A stretch of 21,003 nt of DNA from a virus. The first letter of the stretch is position 1. Each line of letters begins with the position of its first letter. Location of the stretch: positions 1 through 21,003 of the IMG/VR virus record IMGVR_UViG_3300047491_001078. One strand, given 5' to 3'. A model generated the notes under the pieces. The model was not told the DNA's origin. It made no database searches and saw only the letters and a program-made list of their open reading frames with translations. Shown piece after piece: positions 2,585 to 16,915 of the stretch. The position numbers and the translations under genes are program-made.

Positions 2585-3211
2585 ATGGTTATGCCAAAAT
2601 ATGCATATACAGCTTATAGGAATAATATTAGTTCTTTTGGGTATTTAAATTGTACTGACAAAGTTACATTAAGTCCTAAAACATGGTTTTGGGCTTTAAT
2701 TGGACATACTGCTAGAACATTTGTTGATCCTGAAACTAATATTGCATATGTGTATGAGGCGACGACTTTGAATGACGGCACACGGGGTACACAGATTACG
2801 CTAATGTCTGATTGGTTGAAAAAGAGGACGCGTACTCATGTGTACTACCGTGCACCTGTTTTTGTTAATAAGTTAGAAGAAGAACCTTGTAATACTTTGT
2901 TTAAGCAGCATATCAAGAAGTTTAGAGGTTTGCCTTATCCAGATTTAAAACAATGGAAATGGCGTTGGCATATGGTAAATGCAGCATTGGATCTTGGTAT
3001 TAAAGAGTTAGAAAATAAGGATCAAGAGGAAATGATGCATTGCACACAGTTAGCGGTGCATTTAGATAGGTATTGTGGCTTAGTAAGTAAAGATGTAAAT
3101 CCTGCTGAATGGGAACCTGATAATTGTAGAAATCGTAGTAGGATAGATAAAGAGTTGGCAAAAGTAGGAAAAATGGTACTTACGTATGAAGTGGAGCTGT
3201 ACTATGGCTGA
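2585..3211 (+). CDS. Permuted papain-like (NlpC/P60-type) cysteine hydrolase
   Basis: This is a 208-residue protein. The arrangement IGHTAR (H41), then VYEAT (E58), then after about 95 residues MHCTQLAVHL (C153) with DRYCGL behind it matches the circularly permuted papain-like fold of the YiiX/YaeF group of NlpC/P60 enzymes, where the histidine strand comes first and the nucleophile cysteine sits at the start of a late helix. The substrate could be a peptide or amide bond, a peptidoglycan peptide or a lipid thioester; the family is diverse. There is no signal peptide, so it acts in the cytoplasm unless released at lysis or carried in the virion. The start at 2585 has AAAGG 7 nt upstream; a second ATG at 2591 is possible. 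It lies beside regulatory-looking small genes and not beside a holin, so a lysin role is uncertain. Confidence 0.65.
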   Translation: MVMPKYAYTAYRNNISSFGYLNCTDKVTLSPKTWFWALIGHTARTFVDPETNIAYVYEATTLNDGTRGTQITLMSDWLKKRTRTHVYYRAPVFVNKLEEEPCNTLFKQHIKKFRGLPYPDLKQWKWRWHMVNAALDLGIKELENKDQEEMMHCTQLAVHLDRYCGLVSKDVNPAEWEPDNCRNRSRIDKELAKVGKMVLTYEVELYYG

Positions 3212-3449
3212 TGGAACTTGTATATCTTGTAATAGTAAGTTTCCTGAAGAAGTATTGGAACTTTTTATTCAGAGTGAAACAAATATATTTGGTTTAATGT
3301 GCATGGGTTGTATTATTAAAAGGATTCGGGAAGTTATTGGTGATGAGTATCAATTTGAAACTAAGTATGCGCAGGATAAGTATTTAGCGTATCTTAATTA
3401 TATGAAAAAAGGAAAAAATAAAAATGCTTGTATTAAAAAGACGGCATAA
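3204..3449 (+). CDS. Zinc-ribbon-like protein (81 aa)
   Basis: This 81-residue protein has cysteine pairs C6-x2-C9 and C33-x2-C36, 23 residues apart, followed by a helical basic region (IIKRIREVIGDEY) and a Lys-rich end. GTGGAG lies 7 nt before the ATG at 3204, so this start is preferred over an in-frame ATG at 3186. It overlaps the hydrolase gene by 8 nt and the CsrA-like gene by 26 nt, indicating an operon with coupled translation. The two pairs suggest a bound zinc ion, possibly a DNA- or RNA-binding ribbon. No specific family is recognised. Confidence 0.6.
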   Translation: MADGTCISCNSKFPEEVLELFIQSETNIFGLMCMGCIIKRIREVIGDEYQFETKYAQDKYLAYLNYMKKGKNKNACIKKTA

Positions 3450-3645
3450 GCAAAGAATACTTATTGGCGATGATATTGTGATTACTGTATTTACTAAAAG
3501 CAAGTATGATAAAAGTGGTACAGTAATTTCTAATGTGTCAGTTGGTATTGATGCACCTGATAATGTAGTAATATTACGGGAAGAGTTGAAAAATGGAAAA
3601 AGATGTCAAAAAAGTAAACCTATTACCTATTTCAGAACAGAGTGA
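3424..3645 (+). CDS. csrA: CsrA/RsmA-like RNA-binding translational regulator
   Basis: This 73-residue protein keeps the hallmarks of CsrA: MLVLKRR at the start (L4, R6, R7 of the first strand), an IGDDIVITV strand (cf. IGDEVTVTV), GIDAP (cf. GVNAP) and VVILREEL (cf. VAVHREEI), with R52 in the place of the essential R44. CsrA forms a swapped dimer that binds GGA in mRNA leaders and blocks or stabilises translation. It differs by a longer, charged loop between strands 2 and 3 (around FTKSKYDKSG) and by an 18-residue tail that overlaps the next gene. AAAAGGA, a fair ribosome site and also a GGA site, lies 10 nt upstream, so autoregulation is possible. It may redirect host CsrA targets or time phage genes. 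The family call is firm; its targets are unknown. Confidence 0.85.
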   Translation: MLVLKRRHKQRILIGDDIVITVFTKSKYDKSGTVISNVSVGIDAPDNVVILREELKNGKRCQKSKPITYFRTE

Positions 3646-4036
3646 AGTAGCCTGGCTTATTAAGAAGATTGAGTTAGAGTTAAAAGATGTTATACCGATA
3701 TTAGACTCTGTAGGTAAGCAGTATGAGCATGATGTACCTTGGTCTGATAGGTTTTTAGCAGATCATAAGGCGTATCTTAAGAGAGTTCTTATTGGTGCTG
3801 TTGGAAGAATTAATACAAGTGCAGATGCGATTAAATTAGGTGTTATGTTTAAAACACCAGCGAAGTCTGCACATTTTACTTCAATGGGCCTATATAATGT
3901 GTTTAGAATTGCTAGGCAACGTAGAAGAGAAGTGATGTATATAAAGGATTTGCAAAAATGGGTGAACAGTTATTTAAGTGGAAAAGCTGCACCGCACATG
4001 TTTATAAACTATGCAAGGGATGGTTATTATGCCTAG
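3593..4036 (+). CDS. Unknown helical protein before the terminase genes
   Basis: This 147-residue, mostly helical, basic protein has no cysteine pair and no membrane segment. The ATG at 3593 has GGGAAGAG 7 nt upstream but lies 53 nt inside the CsrA-like gene; no usable later start near 3645 was found, so the long overlap is accepted. The last residues overlap the small terminase start by 8 nt. A helix around NVFRIARQRRREVMYI and the end YLSGKAAPHMF could contact DNA or RNA. Its position directly before the small terminase hints at a packaging or regulatory role, but no family is recognised. Confidence 0.55.
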   Translation: MEKDVKKVNLLPISEQSEVAWLIKKIELELKDVIPILDSVGKQYEHDVPWSDRFLADHKAYLKRVLIGAVGRINTSADAIKLGVMFKTPAKSAHFTSMGLYNVFRIARQRRREVMYIKDLQKWVNSYLSGKAAPHMFINYARDGYYA

Positions 4037-4847
4037 TAAAAAGAAGCCAGTTAAACAGGCAGACAAAATTGTCAAACCTGCAAAGAAAGCTAATAGTAAG
4101 CGAGTGGATAGAAACAAAAAACCAAGTAAAGCAGCTGTTGGAACAAATAAATATACGAGTAGAGCATTAGAAGAGCAAAATGTAGATTTTCCTTGGTTAA
4201 GTAATTTTGAAGCTTTAGTATTAGGCCGTGGAGGGTATTATGATACTGAAGGTGTGCTTCATAATCACGAAGGTTGTATTAGGTGTACTGCTATGGTGCA
4301 GTCTACCGGGCAACGATGTAAAAATTTTGCGGTTCATGGAGAGCTTACTTGTAATATACATGGAGGTACGCTTGCGAGAGCAAAAGCTGGTAAACAAAGA
4401 TTGTATTCAGCATTTATAGATGATCCTACGTTAGCAGCAGTATTTGAAAACGCTTGTAATGATGATAATAAGGAAATTAATGGGTTAAGAGAAGAGCTTG
4501 GCTTGTTAAGAATGTTATTGGCTAAGGTTTTAAGAACGTCTGAGCTTGATACCGCGAAAGAGGTTAAAGAAGTAGCGGGTGTTATTGGAGAAATTAGACA
4601 GTTAGTAGATTCATGTACAAAGGCAGAGCTTAGGCTTGGTCAATTAGTTGATATAAGTAAAATTGGATTAATAATGCAACAGGCAGCCAAAATAATTATG
4701 GTGCATGTTAAAGATGAGGAGGTTATAAAGAAAATTGCAGCAGACATCGATAACATCATTATCCCAAATGCTGGGGCAACAACTCCGCAGTTTGAACCAG
4801 TCAACAACTCTGGAAAAGTACGCGAATTGCCCACAGAAATTTATTAG
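4029..4847 (+). CDS. terS: Terminase small subunit (zinc-binding HGG type)
   Basis: This is a 272-residue protein. After a Lys-rich, probably disordered first 40 residues comes C83-x2-C86, TGQRC97, LTC108 and NIHGG (H111), a pattern I recognise from annotated phage small terminases (R-C-x-A ... TG-x-x-C ... C-x2-HGG). A long helical section follows (LREELGLLRMLLAKVL) of the kind used for oligomerisation. The small subunit recognises viral DNA and hands it to the large subunit at the portal. The ATG at 4029 is preferred because AAGGGA lies 8 nt before it; ATGs at 4011 and 4020 lack a site. It overlaps the large subunit gene by more than 100 nt. Assignment rests on the motif plus location. Confidence 0.75.
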   Translation: MPSKKKPVKQADKIVKPAKKANSKRVDRNKKPSKAAVGTNKYTSRALEEQNVDFPWLSNFEALVLGRGGYYDTEGVLHNHEGCIRCTAMVQSTGQRCKNFAVHGELTCNIHGGTLARAKAGKQRLYSAFIDDPTLAAVFENACNDDNKEINGLREELGLLRMLLAKVLRTSELDTAKEVKEVAGVIGEIRQLVDSCTKAELRLGQLVDISKIGLIMQQAAKIIMVHVKDEEVIKKIAADIDNIIIPNAGATTPQFEPVNNSGKVRELPTEIY

Positions 4848-6177
4848 TGATGAGCTTAAAGTAATTCTTACACCAGATCAAATAAAGGTTACACAGTCTG
4901 ATAGATTGATTAAAGGTGGCAGAATTAGTATTAAGGCAGGGCATGGTGTAGGTAAGACGTGTCTTGCAGCTTCATTAGGTATGTGGTTTAAGCATTCTGT
5001 ACGGCCTAGTATTGTATTGACAACTGCGCCTACGCAAAGACAGGTTAAAGAGTTGTTATGGCGAGAGATTAGGCATAGGCATGGTATAGCGCAGCTTCCA
5101 GGCAAGCCGTTAACAATGTCTTATAATATGAATGAGCGTGAGTACATGCTTGGATTTAGTACTGATGATGTAATGCAAATGCAGGGTTTTCATTGTGAAA
5201 ACATCATGGTACTTATTGATGAAGCAAATGGTTATCCTGCAGAGCTGTTTAATGCTGTTGAAGGTTGGTTGTCAGGCGGTATTAGAGTAGTATTAATACA
5301 GATTGGTAACCCTGTAAATCCTATTGGACCATTTTTTGATTCATTCTCAGACGGTGTTACTGATACATATACAATTAGTTGTTTGAACCATCCAAATGTA
5401 CTTGAGCGAAGGAATATAATACCTGGTGCTGTAAAGCATGAGTGGGTAGAATTGCAAAGAAAACGTTGGGGAGAAGAGTCTGCATTTTGGCTTAGTCGTG
5501 TTGCAGGTGAATTTCCTAAAGTGGCGTCTGATGTTGTCATTAACTTATTGTGGGTAGAACATGCAGAACAAGTTGTTAGTAAGTGTAAGTGTCGTGGTGA
5601 AGATTTGTTTATGGGATATGATCCTGCGGAGTATGGTGATGATGAGCATGCATGGGTAATAGGTTGTAGGCATAAAATTCATGCAGTTAAGTCATTAAAT
5701 AATATTGAGCCAGCGCAAGGTGTTAGAGAGACAAAATTATTAAAAACACAGTTTAGCATTAAGGATGACCATATTAGCATTGATGGTATTGGTGCGGGAG
5801 CACCTATAGCGTCTCAGCTAAAGTTAGATGGTGTGCATGCAAATAGAGTTGTTGTTTCTAATAGTGCGCATGATTCAAAAGAGTTTGAAGATTTAGGAAC
5901 TGAGTTGTATTGGAATGCTAGAAATATATTAAATCCTGGATCTGATTTGTATATTCCATTTTCATTTAATGGTAAGCGCGATCAATTAAAAGCAGATCTT
6001 TGTACAAGAAAGTTTCAAGCGTCAAATTCAGGACGCAGAATGTTGGAACCTAAAAGACAGTATAGAGCTAGGTTAAAAAGGTCGCCGAATCATGGTGACG
6101 CTTTTGTATTATGTTATTCTCCATTTGTTTGTAAGAGTTCTTATGGACTTATGTTATTACCAGACGTAATAAATTAG
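4735..6177 (+). CDS. terL: Terminase large subunit (ATPase-nuclease)
   Basis: This 480-residue protein is the packaging motor. Walker A is AGHGVGKT (68-75), Walker B with catalytic acid is IMVLIDEA (157-164), and a coupling-type QIGNPVN follows at 189-195. The C-terminal RNase H-like nuclease has acidic residues in GYDPAEYGDDE (D296), SIDGIGAG (D350) and NHGDAF (D455). It cuts concatemers and drives DNA through the portal. Start choice is uncertain: TTG 4735 has GAGGAGGT 11-12 nt upstream, inside the small subunit gene; ATG 4768 has no ribosome site. The conserved part only begins near residue 27, so either start leaves the enzyme intact. It is followed 14 nt later by the portal gene. Confidence 0.93.
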   Translation: MQQTSITSLSQMLGQQLRSLNQSTTLEKYANCPQKFISDELKVILTPDQIKVTQSDRLIKGGRISIKAGHGVGKTCLAASLGMWFKHSVRPSIVLTTAPTQRQVKELLWREIRHRHGIAQLPGKPLTMSYNMNEREYMLGFSTDDVMQMQGFHCENIMVLIDEANGYPAELFNAVEGWLSGGIRVVLIQIGNPVNPIGPFFDSFSDGVTDTYTISCLNHPNVLERRNIIPGAVKHEWVELQRKRWGEESAFWLSRVAGEFPKVASDVVINLLWVEHAEQVVSKCKCRGEDLFMGYDPAEYGDDEHAWVIGCRHKIHAVKSLNNIEPAQGVRETKLLKTQFSIKDDHISIDGIGAGAPIASQLKLDGVHANRVVVSNSAHDSKEFEDLGTELYWNARNILNPGSDLYIPFSFNGKRDQLKADLCTRKFQASNSGRRMLEPKRQYRARLKRSPNHGDAFVLCYSPFVCKSSYGLMLLPDVIN

Positions 6178-9233: not shown

Positions 9234-9626
9234 ATGCCAGCTTTTATTAAAAAGTCGTTGAATAGTGGTCGTCAGTATGTACAGCGTGTTTTTGGCGCGA
9301 ATGATAATATTGCTAAGGGTGATATTATTACTAACAACCAGCTTACTGGTTTTGCGCTTGATCGTGCTGGTGGTGCTAATGTTATTGCTGCACAGGCTTT
9401 GCTTGGTATTCATATTCCTGCGGAATGCGCTATCATGTTTGAGCATGAGTGTGTAACAATTAACAAGGCTGCGGTGCAGATTAATATCGGTGTAGCTGTG
9501 TATTGGGATCGTGTTGCGCTTAACTGTACCAATGTTGCTGCTGGTAATATCCGTATTGGTAATAGCCTTGCTACGTACGCTGCTAATGCCACTGAAATGG
9601 ATATTTACTTTAATGGGGCTAACTAA
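9234..9626 (+). CDS. Capsid decoration protein (DUF2190-like)
   Basis: This 130-residue protein has the features of the DUF2190 group: an early AKGDIIT segment, an Ala/Gly-rich stretch (GGANVIAAQALLGI), ECAIMFEHECVTINKAA, then GVAVYWDRV and IGNSLATYAA near the end. These small beta-rich proteins are often encoded just before the major capsid protein and bind the outside of the capsid as trimers that stabilise it. TTTTTGGAGAA lies 8 nt before the ATG, and the same string precedes the major capsid gene. Codon choice is enriched in C- and G-ending codons compared with its surroundings, suggesting high expression. Confidence 0.75.
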   Translation: MPAFIKKSLNSGRQYVQRVFGANDNIAKGDIITNNQLTGFALDRAGGANVIAAQALLGIHIPAECAIMFEHECVTINKAAVQINIGVAVYWDRVALNCTNVAAGNIRIGNSLATYAANATEMDIYFNGAN

Positions 9627-15973: not shown

Positions 15974-16915
15974 ATGTCTAAACCTAATGTTGCTATTGGT
16001 AGTTCGCTCGGTTTTAAAGAAGAATCGCAAGCAGGCACTAAGATAAGTCTATCTTCAGGTGCGTCATTTATTGATTTGATTGCTTGTAATCTTAAGTACA
16101 CTGCAGAGAAGTATTCTGAGCCTGCGATTATGGGAACGCGTATTCAGGGGAAGCAGTCTGAAGTGTTGTCGCATAATAATGGCAATGGTACTTTTTCTTG
16201 TCGTGCTAGAGCAGCATATCTAGAACCGGTTGTCAAGATGGCACTAGGCCGTACGGTTAGTTCTGGTATATATGCGCCTATTTTGAATAATGCAGAATTG
16301 CCTACGTTTACTATTGAAAATAGCTTGGCAAGCGCGAATACAATTAGACTAATTGGTGCAAAGTGTGATGAACTTGTTTTGAAGAGTGAAGCAGGTCAAC
16401 CGCTTATTTTGGATGCATCAGTTCTGTCAATGAGCGGTGCGCGGAACCCGCAAGACTTGACGGTTGCGAACTATGCAAATTGGTTGGCGCAAGGTTTGTT
16501 TATGCATTCAAATATGACACTTGCTGCAACAAATGCTGCGTGGCTTGGCGGTAATACAGGAAAAGAAGTAAAGTCAATTGAAGTAACTCTAAAAAATAAT
16601 TTATCTGATGATGACTTTACTAACTCGGTTGATCGTGAGTTTATTTCAGAAGGAATGTTTGAAGCCCTTTTGAAAATGACTGTGCCTTATAATAGTACCA
16701 CAAAGGGTTATTGGGCGGCGGTAGCCGCATTAGATATTGTGGTGATTACTATTGAGTGGTCTGATGGTGAAAATGTGCTGACGCTTGAGTATAAGGGCAG
16801 GTGCGATACCGATTTACCCGAGATTAGTGATGTTTCACCGAAGTTTGTAGACTTGGAGTTTCATACGGTTAGCGAGTCTAACTCGGATAATGCAGTTACG
16901 CTGACTGTTGGATAA
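15974..16915 (+). CDS. Major tail tube protein
   Basis: This 313-residue, mainly beta protein includes FKEESQAGTKISLS near the start, a Gly/Asn-rich turn (NNGNGTFSCR), FTIENSLASANTIRL followed by GAKCDELVLKSEAGQPL, and KSIEVTLKNNLSDD later. The E-x2-x-GT start, an FTIE strand and G-A-x-x-[DE]-x-L-x-L followed by a late ...VTLKNNL are features I associate with siphovirus tail tube proteins. It precedes the chaperone and tape measure genes, as expected. ATGGAGA lies 6 nt before the ATG. No contractile sheath gene is next to it. Confidence 0.75.
   Translation: MSKPNVAIGSSLGFKEESQAGTKISLSSGASFIDLIACNLKYTAEKYSEPAIMGTRIQGKQSEVLSHNNGNGTFSCRARAAYLEPVVKMALGRTVSSGIYAPILNNAELPTFTIENSLASANTIRLIGAKCDELVLKSEAGQPLILDASVLSMSGARNPQDLTVANYANWLAQGLFMHSNMTLAATNAAWLGGNTGKEVKSIEVTLKNNLSDDDFTNSVDREFISEGMFEALLKMTVPYNSTTKGYWAAVAALDIVVITIEWSDGENVLTLEYKGRCDTDLPEISDVSPKFVDLEFHTVSESNSDNAVTLTVG

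Follow-up and report, generated by a model that had tools for sequence, protein, structure and literature searches.

A csrA-like gene upstream of the terminase genes

Bacterial CsrA is a protein that grips GGA sequences and switches mRNAs off. The DNA analysed here is a 21,003-base IMG/VR virus record (the window, meaning that whole stretch), possibly a fragment of a phage genome, with genes for terminase, decoration, capsid and tail proteins and for a probable portal on its plus strand. Ahead of the terminase genes lies an open reading frame for a protein of 73 amino acids (Table 1; coordinates include the stop codon), whose translation is MLVLKRRHKQRILIGDDIVITVFTKSKYDKSGTVISNVSVGIDAPDNVVILREELKNGKRCQKSKPITYFRTE. 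A first-pass annotation had called this frame a CsrA homologue and proposed a profile search, which bore the assignment out: the protein scored 52.3 bits against Pfam CsrA (gathering cut-off 27) and matched the PHROG family of 'CsrA-like regulators' at 8.9e-11. Its placement in this phage family agrees with the presence of terminase, capsid and tail genes elsewhere in the window. The protein can be aligned to solved CsrA, RsmA and RsmE chains. Because it scores well under the NCBIfam equivalog cut-offs (39.9 against 70.1 bits for the CsrA equivalog TIGR00202), we regard it as a divergent member of the family, distinct from the standard host protein. The frame is a real gene, encoding a divergent and probably functional phage CsrA. 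Phage-borne CsrA is in itself already known, with csrA reported in 30 of 2,517 phages and 161 of 20,668 plasmids in a 2020 survey (PMC7366521); what sets the window protein apart is an unusual 8-residue extension.

Table 1 Features at the csrA locus of the window
Feature	Position	Strand	Basis
Upstream ORF, Cys-rich, overlaps csrA by 26 bases	3204..3449	+	No Pfam/PHROG match
csrA ribosome site, A-rich leader, AAAAAAGGAAAAAATAAAA, contains A(N)GGA	3408..3423	+	Sequence
csrA-like gene, 73 aa, stop included	3424..3645	+	Pfam PF02599, phrog_9500
Strand 2-3 connection, residues 24-40, TKSKYDKSGTVISNVSV, predicted extended beta-hairpin	3493..3543	+	Alignment to solved chains; AlphaFold
Codon of R52 (= E. 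coli CsrA Arg44)	3577..3579	+	Alignments
Downstream ORF, overlaps csrA by 53 bases	3593..4036	+	No significant family match
C-terminal tail, residues 58-73, overprinted by the start of the next ORF	3595..3642	+	ORF coordinates, frame check, low pLDDT
Small terminase subunit, probable, weak	4011..4847	+	phrog_10899 0.0096, phrog_3678 1.7e-05
Terminase large subunit; true start possibly further downstream	4735..6177	+	phrog_2 4.7e-23

The gene overlaps its neighbours on both sides, and the large terminase gene follows a short distance downstream. For the upstream frame we preferred a start at 3204 to the one at 3186 given in the ORF list. The tail of the protein had been described as non-canonical, a view that the comparison does not sustain: 21 residues follow the conserved Arg, against a median of 20.5 (range 8-55) in 60 CsrAs, and the DNA for residues 58-73 doubles, in another frame, as the beginning of the next ORF. 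Because this DNA is common to the next gene, the sequence of the tail is best explained by the overlap, and the tail is probably incidental. A cluster of small ORFs lies upstream of the packaging genes (132-545, 1206-1636, 2097-2276 and 3204-3449), several of which are rich in Cys and have CxxC-like motifs; among those scanned, none had a clear family match. Rfam and tRNA scans of the window returned nothing.

Searches of IMG/VR by terminase and capsid found no relatives of this virus, the portal protein had no match among phage records, and the capsid had one distant match there, in Microcystis phage MACPNOA1 (29.5%). Virus contigs bearing csrA share no neighbours with the window other than csrA itself and distant terminases. 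By protein alone, the nearest csrA in virus contigs was one degenerate copy, which is present in a Xenorhabdus genome as well. In L002 (5001-5303) and in L084 (Xenorhabdus thuongxuanensis), a csrA-like ORF retains the N-terminal CsrA part only and then runs into unrelated sequence. The setting of csrA also varies: the gene follows holin and endolysin genes in Escherichia phage PTXU04 and lies beside apparent recombination genes in two IMG/VR contigs, L007 (3300019756_000002) and L155 (3300035698_019057), where the neighbours were identified from our reading of the sequence and not by profile search. The placement of csrA is not conserved and therefore does not point to a fixed phage target.

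RNA-binding core and strand 2-3 connection

The alignments show that the residues of the GGA pocket are kept in the window protein (L4, R6, R7, A44-P45 and R52), those at L4, R6, A36-P37 and R44 in E. coli numbering corresponding to L4, R6, A44-P45 and R52 here. This supports the earlier statement that the RNA-binding core and its key Arg are intact. The equivalent of E. coli Arg44 contacts the RNA loop in RsmE (PMC4005645). Across an alignment of 42 sequences, made up of the window protein, CsrAs from virus contigs and two genome loci, positions M1, L2, R6, I14, G15, A44, P45 and R52 were invariant, and all are therefore present in the window CsrA. Elsewhere the core diverges. Position 5 is Lys, a residue found there in none of 60 other CsrAs, which show Thr, Ser, Gly, Ala, Val or Leu, and positions 8-10 are an unusual HKQ.

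Alignment to the solved chains of E. coli, Yersinia and Pseudomonas CsrA/RsmA shows 8 additional residues in the window protein where strand 2 connects to strand 3. This confirms the longer loop seen at first pass, and such a length is rare among the CsrAs that we compared. The cellular sample comprised about 170 CsrA matches; the 179 genomes sampled came from two phyla, 79 from that of a planctomycete and 100 from that of Xenorhabdus. Insert size was taken as matched codons minus profile span and read by eye from the match tables. Nearly all of these matches had inserts of 0 or +1, a few had +2 to +4, two had +16, as in RsmN, and none had +5 to +15; very long inserts are perhaps under-counted because local matches can split there. 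Among virus sequences collected regardless of loop length, the two marker glycines mostly had a spacing of 18-20; in the window protein it is 26. A scan of virus contigs aimed at longer connections found +7 in L155, +6 in L017/L176, +5 in L107/L121 and L133, and +4 in L102 and L114. The insert sequences differ among these long-connection CsrAs, from which we infer that the connection has probably lengthened on more than one occasion. An unannotated 92-residue CsrA of Pseudomonas phage vsMR (OR687460.1, 2001-2276 of L006) has two separate profile matches, and about 40 additional residues separate its strand 2 and strand 3 marker glycines, far more than in RsmN.

To describe the fold we used an AlphaFold model of a single chain built on the 42-sequence alignment (mean pLDDT 80.4, pTM 0.56). 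The model places strands at residues 11-14, 18-28 and 34-43 and a helix at 53-60, with a pLDDT of about 89 in the insert region and about 56 in the tail. Its sole good fold match in the PDB was RsmE bound to RsmZ RNA (2mfc; probability 1.00, TM 0.75 by target length, E 1.4e-03); the other matches were unrelated folds with E of at least 0.4. The insert is predicted to form an extended beta-hairpin. In the model the 8 residues prolong the strand 2-3 hairpin and do not form an RsmN-style helix, and the ordinary CsrA chain path can therefore be kept. L155, an unrelated virus contig, has its CsrA insert at the equivalent position, but that insert differs in sequence from the one in the window and was modelled as a loop with lower confidence, so an extended hairpin is no general rule for long CsrAs.

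Comparison with known systems placed the window protein closest to the CsrA/RsmA/RsmE type (E. coli CsrA 1y00, Yersinia 2bti and Pseudomonas RsmE 2mfc), with which it shares the profile, the GGA-pocket residues and the predicted chain fold, and from which it differs in the added residues, Lys5, HKQ at 8-10 and sub-equivalog scores. RsmN/RsmF of Pseudomonas aeruginosa (4kji, 4k59) is likewise lengthened at this point between strands 2 and 3, but its insert is helical and 16 residues long, the C-terminal helix is missing and the dimer topology is different (PMC3791407), whereas the window CsrA has 8 residues in a predicted hairpin and retains a predicted C-terminal helix. The nearest relative found, the CsrA of L007, matches at 61% over 56 residues and has a KSG turn; its connection, at +2 residues, is shorter than that of the window protein, and the genes next to it are exonuclease- and RecT-like, not terminase genes. 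Gp28 of PTXU04 and its relatives in phages Pondi and Bas95 resemble the window gene as CsrA-type genes tightly packed in a lytic or tailed phage, but they lack the insert, are extended at the N terminus and differ in the C-terminal part, and they lie beside lysis genes where the window gene is near terminase.

GGA motifs in the phage's own leaders

GGA forms the core of the Shine-Dalgarno sequence, and CsrA-type proteins prefer an A one or two bases 5' of it. We picked 32 likely starts in the window by hand and scored GGA from -20 to -4, with T4, Staphylococcus phage phi11 and MACPNOA1 as controls, the stretches read from these phages carrying no csrA by annotation. GGA was present at 19 of the 32 window starts (59%), compared with 58% of 84 starts in T4, 55% of 49 in phi11 and 58% of 19 in MACPNOA1. 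The first-pass annotation had placed GGAG in nearly all ribosome sites; we found it in 12 of the 32. The fuller motif A(N)GGA was not enriched either, occurring at 34% of window starts against 50% in T4 and 41% in phi11, and GGA was no more exposed in hairpin loops in window leaders than in those of the control phages. These comparisons carry a caution: because GGA is equally common in T4 and phi11, its presence in phage ribosome sites does not count as evidence for CsrA control.

Particular leaders gave a similar picture. An AGGAG had been assigned to the loop of a hairpin at 1736-1755, but when the leader (1725-1775) was folded, 197 of 200 shuffles folded equally well or better (z +1.65). 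The probability of GGA lying in a hairpin loop was 0.00 in this leader and at 9234 and 9690. The motif TTTTTGGAGAA does stand before the decoration and capsid genes as first noted, with exactly two copies in the window (9217 and 9674). In neither leader is this GGA preceded by the consensus A, and the motif is most simply read as a strong ribosome site. The densest GGA cluster in the window had 11 GGA in 200 bases, against up to 12 in shuffles, so that no CsrB-like decoy RNA was apparent. Promoter and terminator scans near csrA found no more than shuffles. The gap that precedes the secreted-protein ORF contains a promoter-like TTTACT-17-TATAAT (1674-1702) with TTTTGGAGAA between its hexamers, from a scan that was as a whole no richer than shuffles. 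Two copies of GGAGACT (2368-2398) stand in the leader ahead of the ORF at 2400, one of them with a probability of 0.73 of lying in a hairpin loop; this is the best-looking double CsrA site near csrA, and comparable cases occur in the control phages. Autoregulation of csrA through its AAAGGAAA leader is possible. Nothing in the virus's own sequence points to a particular mRNA under CsrA control.

Proposed role of the phage CsrA

The explanation that we favour, with somewhat better than even confidence, is that the window protein is a working CsrA/Rsm member that forms a swapped dimer and acts mainly on host mRNAs. Two chains would assemble into the strand-swapped dimer typical of the family, with a pair of A(N)GGA sites; during infection this dimer would bind mRNA leaders, chiefly those of the host, and would block their translation or change it, either supplementing any host CsrA or competing with it. 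The Pfam and PHROG matches, the invariant positions, the RsmE fold of the AlphaFold model, the precedent of PTXU04 and the lack of CsrA-site enrichment in the phage's own leaders count for this explanation; Lys5, HKQ at 8-10 and the sub-equivalog NCBIfam scores count against it. In the one test of a phage csrA that we found, knocking down the homologue of PTXU04, an E. coli phage, led to smaller plaques (PMC11879866). Reprogramming of the host by the window CsrA is plausible in light of this phage and of what CsrA is known to do. Judged by elimination and precedent, and from part of a phage genome, action on host mRNAs appears likelier than control of late phage genes.

The latter idea, in which the protein mainly times late genes through GGA in their ribosome sites, draws on the position of csrA just upstream of the terminase genes, on TTTTTGGAGAA being common to two structural-gene leaders and on a few leaders in which a hairpin loop may present GGA (at 2400, P 0.73; at 15974, P 0.87). 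The evidence first offered for it did not hold up against the controls, where GGA and A(N)GGA were as frequent or more so and loop exposure was no lower; moreover, both structural leaders lack the consensus A and the leader at 1755 has no stable hairpin. We consider it unlikely. Still less probable is a loss of RNA control, whether in a decaying copy or in a dominant-negative protein that poisons host CsrA by pairing with it. The divergent positions 5 and 8-10, the absence of a close relative from the collections searched and the existence of decayed phage csrA copies (L002/L084) fit such a loss, but the frame is open with a plausible ribosome site, it is tightly packed between overlapping genes and every invariant family position is kept. 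A rearrangement of the RsmN kind, in which the insert would redirect the chain into a different, non-swapped dimer with changed specificity, has the shared insert position in its favour and is very unlikely: the insert has 8 residues and not 16, it is modelled with high confidence as a beta-hairpin and not a helix, the C-terminal helix missing in RsmN is predicted, and the best fold match is RsmE, not RsmN.

Within the favoured reading of a working dimer on host mRNAs, the extension is more likely to be a surface for another partner, or neutral, than a new RNA pocket, because by topology it lies at the end of strand 3 opposite the strand 3-4 loop that touches GGA. A bolder and distinctly speculative proposal is that several phages independently lengthened this hairpin as a docking surface, yielding a phage-specific regulator, distinct from CsrA and RsmN, that might for example recruit a host RNase, the ribosome or a CsrA antagonist. 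With its added hairpin, the divergent CsrA of this phage would offer a handle for telling mere mimicry of host CsrA from a newly gained contact. As a separate observation from the cellular sample, CsrA profile matches recur within single genomes of the planctomycete phylum (17 in G057, 15 in G078 and 9 in G033), some of them in tandem within one ORF.
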